Below, in pieces: positions 9,352 through 62,626 of a stretch of DNA of 64,000 nt. The notes below the pieces were generated by a model. That model had not been told where the DNA came from. It did not search any database and saw nothing but the letters and a program-made list of their open reading frames with translations. The position numbers and the translations under genes are program-made. This stretch comes from Rhodobacteraceae bacterium CCMM004 (lineage in GTDB: Bacteria > Pseudomonadota > Alphaproteobacteria > Rhodobacterales > Rhodobacteraceae), in assembly GCA_004005435.1 (NCBI GenBank), contig RZWH01000002.1, positions 186,001 through 250,000 on the forward strand. The letters are read 5' to 3'. Numbering within the stretch: position 1 is the first letter of the stretch; the number at the start of each line of letters is the position of its first letter.

Positions 9352-9467
9352 GCCGGACTTCCCGCGAAGTCCGGCGGCAAATCTCGCGATTTGCCTCTCT
9401 TCCCCGACCGTGGGCGCTTGGCGCGAAATTCGCGAGAATTTCTGCCGGACTTCGCGAGAAGTCCGGC
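9352..9467. repeat. Composite palindromic element, complete copy 1
   Basis: Four palindromes follow in order. P1 (9352-9375) has arms GCCGGACTT/AAGTCCGGC. P2 (9376-9395) has arms GGCAAATC/GATTTGCC around TCGC. After a spacer of about 29 bases come P3 (9425-9442; GAAATTC/GAATTTC) and P4 (9444-9467; GCCGGACTT/AAGTCCGGC). P4 is essentially the reverse complement of P1, and P3 has the core of inverted P2. The whole is therefore two inverted halves, like a BIME. Further complete copies lie at 51368-51481 and 62493-62609. It probably folds in the thrS 3' end and may stop or protect the transcript. Confidence 0.9.
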
Positions 9468-9496
9468 CCCCGGCGAAATATCCTTACACCAGGTCA

Positions 9497-45029: not shown

Positions 45030-45038
45030 TCGTGGAGG

Positions 45039-45330
45039 GCCGGACTTCTCGCGAAGTCCGGCGGGAAATCTCGCGATTTCCCGCGAGGGGCGGCGGTGCC
45101 GTTGGGGTTTCACCTGCGGACGACGCGCGGAGGAAGACCGGACGTCTCACGAAGCCCGGCCGGAAATCTCGCGATGTCCGAGGGAGTTGGGACGTGTTGG
45201 AATAAGCTCAGGACGCCCTGCTGCAGATCGGACCTTACCGGAGGCGCCTTACGCACGAACAGCGCGACCGTTGGCCCGCGCGCGACCGGACTTCGCGTGA
45301 AGTCCGGCCGGAAATCGCGCGATTTCCGGC
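45039..45330. repeat. Three tandem half-copies of the palindromic element
   Basis: The P1-P2 half of the 115-base element occurs three times in the same orientation, at 45039-45084, 45137-45180 and 45285-45330. The first is intact (P1 arms GCCGGACTT/AAGTCCGGC; P2 GCGGGAAATC/GATTTCCCGC). The second is mutated in both palindromes (ACCGGACGT, GATGTCC). The third is nearly intact with an altered core (GCGC for TCGC). The flanks between them are unrelated. The region separates the transporter operon from the convergent DUF2312 gene and contains no gene. Confidence 0.85.
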
Positions 45331-45344
45331 CCGCCCCGGCGGCC

Positions 45345-46016: not shown

Positions 46017-48089
46017 TCAGAGATCGCCGAAATGCTGGCCGTTCTTGATCAACTCGGCAAAGAGCGGTGCGGGGGCAAAGACCTCTCCCTCCTCCGCATA
46101 GCGGCGCAGGTCGTTCTGCACCCGCAGGAGGCCGCGCAGATCCGCCGCCACCATCGGTCCGCCCCGCCAGCGGGGAAAGCCAAGGCCGGCATGGGCGCAG
46201 ACGTCCACCGCGCCGGGGCGCGGGGCGGTGCCGGCCTCGACCGCGCGGGCCCCGGCATTGGCTAGGGCGGCGGTCCAACGGCGCACGATCCCGGGCTCGG
46301 AGATCCGCCGCTCCGCCACCCCCGACATCTCGGCCAGCGCCGCGACGAGGGCGACCGCCTCGTCCGAGACGGCACCCTCGGGGGTATAGAACCCGCCCGC
46401 CCGGCGGCCGACCCGGCCCGCCTCGACCAGCACGTCGAGCACCGTGGCACGGCCCCGGGCGGCCCCCAGAGCCCGCCGCTGCGCCTGGCGGCGGTCGAGT
46501 CCCTCGACGTCCAGCGCGCGGCACGGCCCCTCGTCCAGCCCCCACGCCACCAGCGCGGCGTCAAGACGGTCGGGCGGCACGCCCTGGAGCAACATCGCCT
46601 CGACCGCCTGGAGCCCTGCCTCGCGCAGGGGTCCCAGGATCAGACCGGGCGCCGCGCCCGCGGCCACCGCCGTCATGCCCACACGCGAGGTCAGCGACAG
46701 GGCCGTGGCCAGCGCGGAGGGGTCCGTATCGGCGGTCGCGGCGACCTCGCAGAGCCGCCCGGCCCGCTCGGGCGTGTGCATCGCCACCACTGCGCCCGGC
46801 CGCCCCGACGCTGCGGCGAGGGCGTCGAGGTCGGACAGCGCGGCGGTGGTCGCCAGCACCGCCTCCGGGCGGGTCAGGAGGCCCAACGCCCCCATCCCCT
46901 CGCGTTGCAGCGTCAGGTCGTCGGACAAAGCCAAGAGCGCCAGATCCACGGGCTCCAACGCCTCGAACCGCTCGGCGGGGACAAGGCGCGACAGACGCAG
47001 GTCGGCCGCGGCGCGGTCCAGACGCCCCGCCTCGACCGCCCGGTCGAAGGCGGCGAGGATCCGCTCGGTCACCTGCGCCAGCCCGGGGGCGTCGGTGGCG
47101 ACGAGCACCGTCTCGATCCCCGCCTCCAGCGCCGCGATCGCCCAGGCGGCGCCCCGCGGCGTCGCCCCGACGATGCCGAGGCGTGCGACCTCGGCCGCCG
47201 CGGCGCCGGGGGGCGGCAGAGCGGCCTCGGCCTCCGCCCGGGTCAGGTGGATCAATGCCTGGGCCTCGGGTGTCGCGCGGCAGTCGCGCCAATGCGCGCG
47301 CTCCATCTCCAGCCCCGCCGCGAAGGGCAGCAGCAGCGCCGCCTCGACGCAATCGGGCAGCGCCCGGGCGGCGGGGATCGGGCCGGGCGCCCGCCGCGCG
47401 GCGGCGCAGGCGGCCATGAAGCCACGAGGATCGGCCAGCCCCTCACGCCGGGCCGAGGTAGGGACAGCCGGCGCCGCGGCGAGGCGGCGGGCCAGTGCCG
47501 CGGCGTCGACCGCCGGATCGCCCTCCGCCACAGCGTCGATCAGGCCCGCGGGCGCCGCCTCAGCCCGAACGGCACGGCCACCCGACAGCATCCTGAGCGC
47601 AGCTTCGGCGCCCACCAGGCGCGGCAGCCGCTGGGTCGCCCCCGCCCCCGGCGGCAGGCCCAGCGCGATCTGCGGGAAGGACAGGGCGACGCCCCGCGCC
47701 GCCGTCCGCCCGTGGCAGGCGAGCGCCAGTTCCAGGCCCGGCCCCGCGGCCGCACCGTTCAGCGCCGCGACCACCGGCTTGGGCGCCGCCTCGATCTCCG
47801 CTGCCAGCCTAGCGACGGCGTCGAGCACGGTCTCGGCCTCTGGCCCGGTGGCCCCCGCGCCGGTGCTGAACACCCGCCCCTGCCCCACCAGCACCGCCGC
47901 ACCCACCTCGGGATCGGCAATGGCGCGGTCGAGTTGGGCACCGATCCCGGCGGCCAGAGCGGCGCTCATCGCCGTGCCCGGGACCGCGGTGAAGGCGATG
48001 ATGGCCACCCCCTGGGCGACGTCGTAGTCGGGCAGGCGCATCGTCGCGTCTCCAGGTCCGGGGGTCGACGGGGGGACGGCGCGCGTCAT
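46017..48089 (-). CDS. FadB-like multifunctional protein with altered active sites
   Basis: It has 690 residues in the two-enzyme layout of FadB/FadJ: enoyl-CoA hydratase (about 20-200), 3-hydroxyacyl-CoA dehydrogenase (about 310-690). One catalytic Glu is kept (GPGLELAL), but the second is Gln (Q140 in FPQIALGLPPG). The NAD-binding loop GxGxxG is replaced by GATPRG, while the dehydrogenase His is retained in AMHTP. The protein is either very divergent or partly inactive. The ATG at 48089 overlaps the stop of the preceding frame (ATGA); an ATG at 48041 with GGAG upstream is the alternative. It probably acts after the phosphotransferase and acyl-CoA dehydrogenase encoded nearby. Confidence 0.8.
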   Translation of the reverse strand: MTRAVPPSTPGPGDATMRLPDYDVAQGVAIIAFTAVPGTAMSAALAAGIGAQLDRAIADPEVGAAVLVGQGRVFSTGAGATGPEAETVLDAVARLAAEIEAAPKPVVAALNGAAAGPGLELALACHGRTAARGVALSFPQIALGLPPGAGATQRLPRLVGAEAALRMLSGGRAVRAEAAPAGLIDAVAEGDPAVDAAALARRLAAAPAVPTSARREGLADPRGFMAACAAARRAPGPIPAARALPDCVEAALLLPFAAGLEMERAHWRDCRATPEAQALIHLTRAEAEAALPPPGAAAAEVARLGIVGATPRGAAWAIAALEAGIETVLVATDAPGLAQVTERILAAFDRAVEAGRLDRAAADLRLSRLVPAERFEALEPVDLALLALSDDLTLQREGMGALGLLTRPEAVLATTAALSDLDALAAASGRPGAVVAMHTPERAGRLCEVAATADTDPSALATALSLTSRVGMTAVAAGAAPGLILGPLREAGLQAVEAMLLQGVPPDRLDAALVAWGLDEGPCRALDVEGLDRRQAQRRALGAARGRATVLDVLVEAGRVGRRAGGFYTPEGAVSDEAVALVAALAEMSGVAERRISEPGIVRRWTAALANAGARAVEAGTAPRPGAVDVCAHAGLGFPRWRGGPMVAADLRGLLRVQNDLRRYAEEGEVFAPAPLFAELIKNGQHFGDL

Positions 48090-48319
48090 ACCCGCGGCTC
48101 CGGGGCAGTCACGCGGCCAAGGGGGGCAGGGATAGAACGCCGCAGCTCCGCGCGGGTCCCGGCATGGTCATGTCGGGGGACGATCGCGGTGATTAGGCCG
48201 GCGCTCTTGGCCGAATCATCGCCGGGTGTGGCGGGGACGCTACCGGCAAAGCCGTCGTCGGGTCGGCTCAGGGGCTCATTTGCTGGTCGAGCGGTCGGGG
48301 AGTCAGCGAAGGGGGTCAT
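48086..48319 (-). pseudogene. Truncated duplicate of the FadB-like gene start, copy nearest the gene (77 codons)
   Basis: The ATG overlaps the previous frame's TGA, and its own TGA overlaps the FadB-like ATG (both ATGA). The middle (RPDDGFAGSVPATPGDDSA) lines up with LPDYDVAQGVAIIAFTAVPG of the intact gene, the weakest match of the three. The end reads APEPRV, matching SPEPRA at the end of the 145-codon frame. No function is suggested beyond keeping ribosomes moving to the next start. Confidence 0.5.
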
Positions 48320-48558
48320 CCAAAAGCCTCCCCTGGGGCACCGCGTCCCATGGGAACGGGCATCGCTCCTGCCGCCCTCGCATCGGGCACCGCGGGACCC
48401 CGGTGAACGCCGATCCCGCCAGTGGGGGCGACGTTCGTGACCATGCCGGCGAAAGCGCTCAAAGCCAGCCCGGCCAAACCCTCGGGACCGTCGTTGCCGG
48501 GCAGGCGCATGGGGGCATCTCCGAGTGCGGTGGGCGAGCGGGGGGCGACGCGGATCAT
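48316..48558 (-). pseudogene. Truncated duplicate of the FadB-like gene start, middle copy (80 codons)
   Basis: It starts at an ATG overlapping the upstream frame's TGA and ends with a TGA overlapping the next ATG. Residues 17-23, MRLPGND, match MRLPDYD of the intact gene, with the same 16-residue lead. At DNA level ATGCGCCTGCCCG is identical, and GGGATCGG recurs later at the same distance. After about 50 codons the similarity ends. Confidence 0.6.
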
Positions 48559-48992
48559 GCCCGTGGCTCCGGGGAAGTGCCGCGTATCCCGTAGCTCGGC
48601 ACCGTCGCCGGGACTTGTGCGCCGGCCAGCGCACCGCACCGCCCGACGATCCTGGCTGCCGGGGCACCGCGCCGCATCGTCCCGGCCGTGGGTGCTGAGG
48701 CGATGTCTGAGGGCGGGTGCATAGGGCGATCGCCGGGTCCGGCGGTGCGCTGGCCGGGCGCGCGGCGGTGGCCACCGGCCGCACCGCGGCCCACGGCCAC
48801 CGGCCCTGTGCGCCACGACCGAGCATGGATCCCTGGGCTACCGCGCTGAGCGCAGACCCCGGCGGTTGGACGGGGCTCCCTCATCGCCGTGTCGGGTGCG
48901 GCGGTGAGTGCGACGACGGCCACGCCCTCGGCGTGCGGGTTCTTCGGCACGTGTCCGGCGCCGGTGGGCGGGGAGCTGGCGGCGCGGGTCAT
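48555..48992 (-). pseudogene. Truncated duplicate of the FadB-like gene start, distal copy (145 codons)
   Basis: It begins MTRAASSPP, as the intact gene begins MTRAVPPST. Residues 22-37 (EGVAVVALTAAPDTAM) match QGVAIIAFTAVPGTAM. Its ATG overlaps the phosphotransferase TGA, so this copy sits where the original gene start would be expected. After about 40 codons the sequence drifts into Arg/Pro/Gly-rich text. It may contain a further decayed copy near 48720 (MHPPSDIASAPTAGTMRRG). It ends SPEPRA at the next overlap. Confidence 0.6.
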
Positions 48993-50044
48993 GCGGCCGC
49001 CTCGGCGGCGATGCCGCGGCCCAGGTGCACGAGCACCGGGATCGCCTGCGCATAGCGCCGCGCGCTCTCGGGGTTCGATGCGTTGCCCGCCGCCGCCCGG
49101 CCCACCACGCCATGGAGGATCGCCGCCAGGCGGAAGAACGAGAACGCCAGGTAGAAGGGCCAGTGGTCCAGGCCGCCGAGCCCCCGCCGCCGGCAGTAGG
49201 CGGCGACATAGGCCTCCTCGTCAGGCAGACCCAGCGCGGCGCGGTCGCGTCCGCCCAGCCCCCGCATCCCCGCGTCGTGGGGCAGCCGCCACTGCATACA
49301 CTGATAGGCCAGGTCGGCCAGCGGATGGCCAAGGGTGCTGAGCTCCCAATCGATGAGCCCGCGCACGGCCGCCACCTCGGCGTCGAAGACCATGTTGTCG
49401 AGGCGGTAGTCGCCGTGGACCAGCGCCACCTGTCCGTCGTCGGCGGGCACGGCCCGCTCCAGCCAGGCGATCAGGGCCGCCATTTCTGGGTCGCGGTCCG
49501 CGCCGCCCGCGCGGACCTGGCGGCTCCACCGGTCGAGCTGGCGGGCGAAATACGCGCCGCGGGGGCCGAAATCGCCCAGTCCGACGGCGTCGACGTCCAC
49601 CTCGTGCAGCGCCGCCAGCACGGCGTTCATCGCGTCGTAGAGCGCCGGGCGCGCGTCCTGGGCCACCTCGGGCAGCGCCGGATCCCAGAAGATCCGCCCC
49701 TCCAGATACTCCATGACGAAGAACGCCCGCCCCAGGGGGGACTGCGCGTCCGGCGCCAGCGCCAGCACCCTCGGCACCGGGACCGGGGTGCGCGCCAGTG
49801 CGGCCATGGCCCGGAACTCGCGCTCGACCTGATGGGCGGACGTCACCAAATCGCCCGGCGGTTTGGCCCGCAGCACCAGCCGCGCCCCGGCGCAGTCCAG
49901 GCGATAGGTGGGGTTCGACTGTCCCTGGCCGAACTTCTCGACCGCGATGAGCGGACCGGCCTCGGGCAGATGGCGCGCCAGCCAGTCGGCGAGCGTGCGC
50001 GCGGGGATGTCAAGACCCGGAACCATGCCCCGATTAGTAGGCAT
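48989..50044 (-). CDS. Phosphotransferase (APH family), ACAD10/11-type kinase
   Basis: It has about 351 residues. This is the aminoglycoside-phosphotransferase fold that in mammals is fused to ACAD10/11, and in bacteria stands beside acyl-CoA dehydrogenases. Seen are FGQGQSNPTYRLD (nucleotide loop, residues 38-50), RAKPPG, the catalytic HGDYRLDNMVFD near 210 and the metal-binding LIDWELSTLGHP near 231. The expected role is phosphorylation of 4-hydroxyacyl-CoA in hydroxy-acid breakdown. The ATG at 50044 is used; an ATG at 50026 is possible. It diverges from the dehydrogenase gene, and its stop overlaps the next frame (ATGA). Confidence 0.85.
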   Translation of the reverse strand: MPTNRGMVPGLDIPARTLADWLARHLPEAGPLIAVEKFGQGQSNPTYRLDCAGARLVLRAKPPGDLVTSAHQVEREFRAMAALARTPVPVPRVLALAPDAQSPLGRAFFVMEYLEGRIFWDPALPEVAQDARPALYDAMNAVLAALHEVDVDAVGLGDFGPRGAYFARQLDRWSRQVRAGGADRDPEMAALIAWLERAVPADDGQVALVHGDYRLDNMVFDAEVAAVRGLIDWELSTLGHPLADLAYQCMQWRLPHDAGMRGLGGRDRAALGLPDEEAYVAAYCRRRGLGGLDHWPFYLAFSFFRLAAILHGVVGRAAAGNASNPESARRYAQAIPVLVHLGRGIAAEAAA

Positions 50045-50132
50045 GGGCGTCCCCGGCGCAATGGGCCGATTGACTTCCCCACCGGGCGTTGCATCCTCGG
50101 CCGCTCACGCAAGGCCGAGGGAGGACGACGCG

Positions 50133-51362
50133 ATGGATCTGGGACTGAGCGACCGGGCGGCGCCCCTGCACACGGCGGTGCGGGCGATGATCGCCGACGA
50201 GATCGCCCCATTGGACGCGGAGTTCCTGGCCGAGGTCGACGTGGGCGACCGGTGGCAGTTCACGCCGCGCCAGACCGAGATCCTGGAGGGGCTGAAGGCC
50301 GCCGCGCGGGACCGGGGCCTGTGGAACCTCTGGCGCACCGATGGCGCGGGCGGGGCGGGGTTGAGCACCGTCGACTACGCCTACATGGCCGAGGAGATGG
50401 GCAAGAGCCACCTGGCCGCCGAGGTCTTCAACTGCAATGCACCCGACACCGGCAATATGGAGGTCTTCGCCCGCTACGGCACCGAAGCGCTCCAGGAGCG
50501 GTGGCTTGCGCCGCTGCTGGCCGGCGAGATCCGGTCGGCCTATCTGATGACCGAGCCGGAGGTGGCGAGCTCCGACGCCACCAACATTGCCATGTCCTGC
50601 GTCCGCGACGGCGACGCCTACGTGCTGAACGGCGAGAAATGGTGGGCCACCGGCGCCGGCGATCCGCGCTGCGCCGTCTACATCGTGCTGGTGCGCACCG
50701 GCGACGACGCGGCGCCCAAGCACGCCCGCCATTCGATGATCGTGGTGGACGCCGCGACCGCGGGGATCGAGAGGCTGCGGGCGATGCAGGTGTACGGCCA
50801 CGACGACGCGCCGCATGGGCACATGCACCTGCGGTTCACCGACGTGCGGGTGCCGGTCGAGAACCTTCTGGTGGGCGAGGGCCGCGGATTCGAGATCGCA
50901 CAGGGGCGGCTCGGACCGGGGCGGATCCACCACTGTATGCGGGCCCTGGGCCAGGCGGAAAAGGCGCTGGAATGGATGTGCCGCCGCAGCCTGGCGCGCA
51001 AGGCGTTCGGCCGACCCCTGGCACATCTCGGCGCGACCTACGACATCATCGCCGAGGCGCGGATGGGGATCGAGCAGGCCCGGCTCCTCTGTCTCAAGGC
51101 GGCGTGGATGATGGACCGCGGCGATGCCCGGGCCGCCGCCCCTTGGATCAGCCAGGTCAAGGTGGTGGCGCCGCAGGTCGCGCTTCGGGTCACGGACGCG
51201 GCGGCGCAGATGCACGGCGCGGCGGGTCTCAGCCAGGACACCCCGCTCGCCCGGCAATGGACTCATCTGCGGACGCTTCGACTGGCCGACGGACCCGACG
51301 CGGTGCACCGCCGCCAGGTGGCCCGCGCCGAGCTGCGCCGCTATTCCGCGCCGGCGGCCTAG
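50133..51362 (+). CDS. Acyl-CoA dehydrogenase, ACAD10/11-like
   Basis: It is a 409-residue FAD enzyme. The FAD/substrate motif is YLMTEPEVASSDATNI, and the second FAD motif is NGEKWWATGAGDP. The C-terminal catalytic region is LRLADGPDAVHRRQVAR. Where ordinary members have the base in YEGT, this reads ADGP, as in ACAD11, which fits a non-classical reaction on phosphorylated 4-hydroxyacyl-CoA. GGAGG precedes the ATG at 50133. It is divergent from the matching kinase gene. A complete palindromic element follows the stop by 5 bases. Confidence 0.9.
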   Translation: MDLGLSDRAAPLHTAVRAMIADEIAPLDAEFLAEVDVGDRWQFTPRQTEILEGLKAAARDRGLWNLWRTDGAGGAGLSTVDYAYMAEEMGKSHLAAEVFNCNAPDTGNMEVFARYGTEALQERWLAPLLAGEIRSAYLMTEPEVASSDATNIAMSCVRDGDAYVLNGEKWWATGAGDPRCAVYIVLVRTGDDAAPKHARHSMIVVDAATAGIERLRAMQVYGHDDAPHGHMHLRFTDVRVPVENLLVGEGRGFEIAQGRLGPGRIHHCMRALGQAEKALEWMCRRSLARKAFGRPLAHLGATYDIIAEARMGIEQARLLCLKAAWMMDRGDARAAAPWISQVKVVAPQVALRVTDAAAQMHGAAGLSQDTPLARQWTHLRTLRLADGPDAVHRRQVARAELRRYSAPAA

Positions 51363-51367
51363 CCGGG

Positions 51368-51481
51368 GCGGACTTCTCGCGAAGTCCGGCGGCAAATCCC
51401 TCGATTTGCCTTCCCGGCCCAACGGTGCGGACGGCGCCGAAACTCGCGAGAATTTCTGCCGGACTTCGCGAGAAGTCCGGC
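51368..51481. repeat. Composite palindromic element, complete copy 2
   Basis: P1 (51368-51390) lacks one C of the left arm. P2 (51391-51410) is GGCAAATC/GATTTGCC with the core CCTC changed to CCCT-like. P3 (51439-51456) has arms GAAACTC/GAATTTC with one mismatch, and P4 (51458-51481) is perfect. The order and the spacer of about 28 bases are as in the copy at 9352. It separates the convergent acyl-CoA dehydrogenase and the 70-codon gene, where a bidirectional terminator would be useful. Confidence 0.88.
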
Positions 51482-62488: not shown

Positions 62489-62492
62489 GATG

Positions 62493-62609
62493 GCCGGACT
62501 TCGCGCGAAGTCCGGCCGCAAATCTCGCGATTTGCCGCCCCCGCCCCGCGGTTCGAGCCCCGTCCCGGAATTCGCGAGAATTCCTGCCGGATATCGCGAG
62601 ATATCCGGC
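62493..62609. repeat. Composite palindromic element, complete copy 3
   Basis: P1 (62493-62516) has arms GCCGGACTT/AAGTCCGGC around CGCGCG. P2 (62518-62535) has arms GCAAATC/GATTTGC around TCGC. P3 (62567-62584) is GGAATTC/GAATTCC, and P4 (62586-62609) is GCCGGATAT/ATATCCGGC. P4 here is paired by compensating changes (ATAT for ACTT and AAGT). The spacer is 31 bases. It lies inside the operon between livG and livF, so it cannot be a full terminator. Confidence 0.9.
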
Positions 62610-62626
62610 CGCCGAAAGGAAACGCC

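Follow-up and report, generated by a model that had tools for sequence, protein, structure and literature searches.

Between a gene for an APH-family phosphotransferase (PT) and a gene for a FadB-like protein, a window of 64,000 nt from Rhodobacteraceae bacterium CCMM004 carries three small open reading frames that are strung together by stop/start overlaps. How did such a chain arise, and does anything maintain it? A preliminary description of the sequence regarded the frames as a serial duplication of the 5′ end of a gene and offered, as explanations, selection to keep an unbroken ribosome path or recent decay. Our analyses point instead to a tandem partial duplication of the operon junction between the two genes, followed by decay. 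We consider this reading likely, and it describes an event of a known kind, new in its detail.

Layout of the locus

The coordinates (Table 1) bear out the three ATGA-linked frames, here ORF1 to ORF3, that had been placed between the phosphotransferase and the FadB-like gene. Four ATGA overlaps on the minus strand connect PT to ORF1, ORF1 to ORF2, ORF2 to ORF3 and ORF3 to the FadB-like gene. The Pfam matches of the FadB-like protein correspond to an enoyl-CoA hydratase and the NAD domain of a 3-hydroxyacyl-CoA dehydrogenase.

Table 1. Coordinates of genes, small frames and predicted repeat units in the window
Feature	Position	Strand	Description
APH-family phosphotransferase (PT) gene	48989..50044	-	351 aa; Pfam APH, E 1e-47
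FadB-like gene	46017..48089	-	690 aa; Pfam ECH_1, E 3e-24; 3HCDH_N, E 9e-20
ORF1	48555..48992	-	145 codons; spans units A1 and A2
ORF2	48316..48558	-	80 codons; unit B (239 nt), best preserved copy
ORF3	48086..48319	-	77 codons; unit C (230 nt)
Unit A1 (first half of ORF1)	48771..48992	-	starts at PT stop/ATGA; 12-nt deletion; 222 nt to next unit
Unit A2 (second half of ORF1), degraded	48559..48770	-	212 nt; ATGA changed to CACC; inner ATG at 48722 kept
GGAG and inner ATG of FadB-like gene	48039..48053	-	GGAG 8 nt before ATG at codon 17 (48041); from sequence reading and the junctions of relatives
Acyl-CoA dehydrogenase-like gene	about 50133-51362	+	divergent from PT

Similarity of the small frames to the flanking genes

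The beginnings of the three frames repeat that of the FadB-like gene, as the preliminary description had noticed. When the start of each frame was aligned locally, as DNA, with that of the FadB-like gene, none of 500 dinucleotide shuffles and none of 600 real GC-rich segments of the same window scored as well; the alignment thus stands above all shuffled sequence of like composition, a check named in that description. Scores for the heads alone against FadB were 323 for ORF2 (null mean 92), 272 for ORF1 (104) and 185 for ORF3 (85). The clearest direct repeat covers 54 nt at 80% identity with a spacing of 915, close to the pair of about 80% over 46 bases first picked out by eye. By BLASTN, ORF2 matched the FadB head at 70% identity over 175 nt (E 6e-16 in the window, 2e-16 in the genome), and the search of the whole genome (4.4 Mb) returned no other strong match. 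The similarity is star-shaped with the FadB head at its center, and units B and C show no more than a marginal likeness to each other (22 of 600 nulls as good). Such a star fits independent decay of copies around a source that changed more slowly.

The similarity also extends upstream, starting approximately 50 nt ahead of each ATGA in a stretch that resembles the true end of the PT gene. Single comparisons of these tails are weak and the signal is strong only as a joint, register-fixed test, in which the sequences upstream of the four ATGA junctions shared 102 of 180 identities over 30 nt and 154 of 300 over 50 nt, values that none of 20000 random sets equaled. When the true PT end was compared with the copies, we counted 52 of 90 identities over 30 nt (28 ± 6 expected, p 1.7e-4) and 79 of 150 over 50 nt (0 of 6000 as good), and no other in-frame position of PT matched the copy tails as well. 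The protein ends show the same trend: LGRGIAAEAAA in PT, LGRVTAPEPRV in ORF3, MGRGAPGEAFG in ORF2 and GIRGTSPEPRA in ORF1. The shared S/APEPR ending reported earlier for two of the frames was found in ORF1 (SPEPRA) and ORF3 (APEPRV). Because the PT end matches the tails of the copies, each small frame has a FadB-like head and a PT-like tail. The repeated unit is the PT/FadB junction itself: the last 50 nt or so of PT, the ATGA and about 175–190 nt of the FadB 5′ end. The earlier proposal of a serial duplication therefore holds as to duplication and fails as to the unit, which is not a gene 5′ end alone.

Anatomy of the array

We distinguish four tandem copies (A1, A2, B and C) followed by the working FadB head (F), with spacings of 222, 212, 239 and 230 nt. 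Three frames are present, as first described, yet they would hold four copies rather than three, since ORF1, almost double the length of either of the others, contains two units, the second beginning at 48770. Unit A1 scored 272 against the head of F (null 104 ± 19, 0 of 600 as good), with 82 of 141 ungapped identities where chance gives a mean of 43, and unit C scored 259 against F (null 113 ± 19, 0 of 600). Unit A2 is the weakest part of this anatomy and is proposed on one register signal and one local alignment. The first came from an ungapped scan of the 64-kb minus strand with 141 nt around the ORF2 start, whose top places were FadB (97 identities), ORF3 (73), ORF1 (71) and position 48770 (68/141, rank fraction 5e-5). 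Other queries scored at exactly the same position (F 2.6e-4, C 1e-3, A1 2e-3) and neighboring registers did not. The region around the inner ATG of A2 reads GDRPMHPPSD, compared with GDAPMRLPGND and GDATMRLPDYD. In the local alignment of A2 with the ORF2 head, 1 of 500 nulls was as good; in a window-wide tile scan this alignment did about as well as the best tile arising by chance, and a four-unit profile missed A2.

The source of the array is intact on both flanks, as PT tail and FadB head, and the copies stand head to tail with homology above chance, the arrangement expected of a tandem partial duplication. Tandem Repeats Finder gave nothing useful on copies this diverged, and BLASTN self-comparison detected no second array of similar kind in the window.

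Age and coding state of the copies

Recent decay, one of the explanations offered at first, is not supported. The copies are only about 46–70% identical to the FadB head, which argues against a recent origin, and ORF1 to ORF3 lack the codon-position GC signature of genes (0.76/0.65/0.75 in ORF2; 0.79/0.51/0.90 in PT and 0.83/0.60/0.90 in the FadB-like gene, or about 0.8/0.5–0.6/0.9 for genes here). The first 60 codons of ORF1 retain a trace of the bias (0.72/0.70/0.83). Further, the C-G strand skew flips sign, from -0.04 and -0.06 in the genes to +0.08 in the small frames. Differences to FadB were flat or reversed across codon positions in A1 and C and rose mildly toward the third position in B. 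Searches of Pfam and NCBIfam gave no match for any of the three frames, and scans of the array turned up neither a promoter- or terminator-like site nor an Rfam family that passed its threshold. In other genomes, short hits to the interior of ORF1 lie in unrelated frames and are compositional. The copies are thus old and free of any sign of protein constraint, and the peptides of the small frames are most likely non-functional.

The junction in related genomes

A scan of genome contigs with the PT protein identified 80 relatives in other genomes, from Rhodobacteraceae (Palleronia, Aliiroseovarius, Litoreibacter and Kandeliimicrobium among them) and Rhizobiales; a scan with the FadB-like protein found none. 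A FadB-like gene lies directly behind PT in 22 of the 80, in most cases across an ATGA or similarly tight junction. The array was absent from all 22 of these junctions, in genomes that all belong to other genera. In two relatives with a long gap between PT and FadB (L053 and L073), unrelated genes occupy the gap (an SDR-type and a TetR-type frame by translation motifs). Since the adjacent, mostly tight pair occurs without the array in 22 related genomes, a single ATGA junction is probably the ancestral state, and the overlap would have been copied with each unit. The comparison with related genomes suggested in the preliminary description supports this much at the scale of genera; the nearest genomes compared, likewise of other genera, include no intermediate array stage.

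The relatives also bear on where the FadB-like gene begins. Its inner ATG at codon 17 (48041) aligns approximately with the start codon of related FadB-like genes and may be the true start. Because the relatives' start corresponds to about codon 17, the 16 residues that follow the ATGA appear to be a lineage-specific addition, and, given a similar stretch in unit A1, the addition would predate the duplications.

Origin of the chain and alternative explanations

We propose that, in the lineage of this genome, several rounds of tandem duplication of approximately 230 bp, from the 3′ end of PT across the ATGA to the FadB-like 5′ end, produced additional copies that subsequently decayed. That the copies lie in tandem is evident from the sequence; replication slippage or unequal recombination would be the cause. 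As the ATGA lies inside the unit, each duplication would have created a new small frame, from FadB head to PT-like tail, that ends in the next ATGA. The outermost junctions would still serve real genes: PT would end at A1, and FadB would begin at F, using the ATGA or else the inner ATG, which has a ribosome site to itself. On this view, the linked small frames are mostly a by-product of how the array originated.

The best-surviving alternative is that, after duplication, selection acted on the ribosome path alone, keeping open frames and ATGA links or in-frame fusions and leaving sequence and length free. It could have done so if ribosomes arriving from PT are the only ones to reach the FadB-like gene, or if, as we infer, 0.9 kb of C-rich leader left untranslated could favor Rho termination. 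The path from PT to FadB in the real array is indeed unbroken, in two hops, and overlap coupling is strongly distance-dependent, with about 20 nt nearly abolishing it (PMC10666635). The ATGA is kept at two of three free junctions even though the units have diverged to 55–66% in alignment, and A2, whose ATGA is gone, is still read in its own frame. Judged from the repeat spacings (903, 915 and 912), the gaps between A1 and F measure 12 and 3 nt, both divisible by three. Retention of both the ATGA and the open frame in B and C occurred in 0.3–3% of runs of a substitution-only simulation. Our decay models took the present FadB head plus the ORF3 tail as the ancestral unit and used composition-only substitution. 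In a neutral version, however, in which the copies of a four-unit array carried all or half of the divergence and each unit took zero or one indel, the path, counted as reaching and running through, stayed unbroken in about 6–11% of arrays, and the simulated percentages do not establish selection for a case that was picked for its ATGA chain. One of three free junctions did lose its ATGA, open frames come cheap here (the other frames of both strands have only 3–7 stops per 300 codons), and the inner ATG, with a GGAG of its own, may serve as the FadB start. The repeated ATGA is explained without selection, because the overlap sits inside the repeat unit. Selection for an unbroken path, raised in the preliminary description, strikes us as improbable, if still worth weighing.

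Much less credible is that the small frames are real small genes with functional peptides. They are open and have start codons, and ORF2 has a GGAG before its inner ATG, but they lack codon-position GC bias and protein family matches, they are absent from all 22 related junctions, and the differences of A1 and C to FadB are not concentrated at third codon positions. That the similarity is an effect of chance or composition in DNA of 70–78% GC can be dismissed almost outright: random GC-rich segments do align with positive scores, and some short hits in other genomes are of that sort, but no real GC-rich segment taken from the window scored as high as the FadB-head comparisons, an exact-register ungapped scan with unit B ranks the units first in the 64-kb minus strand, and chance is refuted for A1, B and C, with A2 the weakest case.

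Comparison with known systems

A decayed tandem duplication of the junction shares with pseudogene arrays formed by tandem partial gene duplication the regular head-to-tail copies beside an intact source, their divergence and their lack of a coding signature. Unlike in those arrays, the unit here would straddle two genes and a stop/start overlap, and it yields linked small frames rather than plain truncated pseudogenes. Each junction has the same 4-nt overlap as gene pairs translated by ATGA termination-reinitiation (PMC6728339, PMC10666635), and the overlap is common between PT and the FadB-like gene in related genomes. It differs from those pairs in having been, as we read the sequence, multiplied by duplication, so that it links frames that are not genes. 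A literature search for decayed junction duplications returned nothing on point.

The source genes recall the 4-hydroxyacyl-CoA pathway of lva and ACAD10-ACAD11 (PMC12440821), in which an APH-type kinase gene also lies beside an acyl-CoA dehydrogenase-like gene. This likeness covers the context of the source genes only and would rest on the APH Pfam match and the neighborhood (48989-51362).

Several motifs of the FadB-like protein are altered. PQI stands in place of the hydratase motif PE(I/V) and GATPRG in place of the NAD motif GxGxxG, and the HFFxPA stretch has shrunk to MHTPER, so the protein looks catalytically degenerate. Similar motif losses were seen in FadB-like neighbors of the same PT gene in Palleronia and Oceaniglobus (relatives L075, L076, L151 and L084). 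In a tree, the Palleronia and Oceaniglobus copies cluster with that of the window, and many other PT-linked copies retain the motifs. This pattern suggests a clade of FadB-like pseudoenzymes linked to the kinase gene.

As a separate feature of the window, an interspersed palindromic repeat of 50–120 nt occurs at 9352-9472, 45034-45084, 45132-45180, 45284-45338, 51366-51481 and 62489-62614. Its copies are about 80–93% identical, fold far better than shuffles (z -7.7) and have 22 matches in the genome, many of them both-strand pairs of one place. The repeat looks like a REP/BIME-type element.

Significance

Duplicating an overlapping gene junction is enough by itself to produce a series of coupled small frames with the look of design, and annotation pipelines may call such frames genes. 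Should selection on the ribosome path nonetheless prove true, the locus would serve as a natural experiment that asks whether operons are selected for unbroken translation, its product aside.
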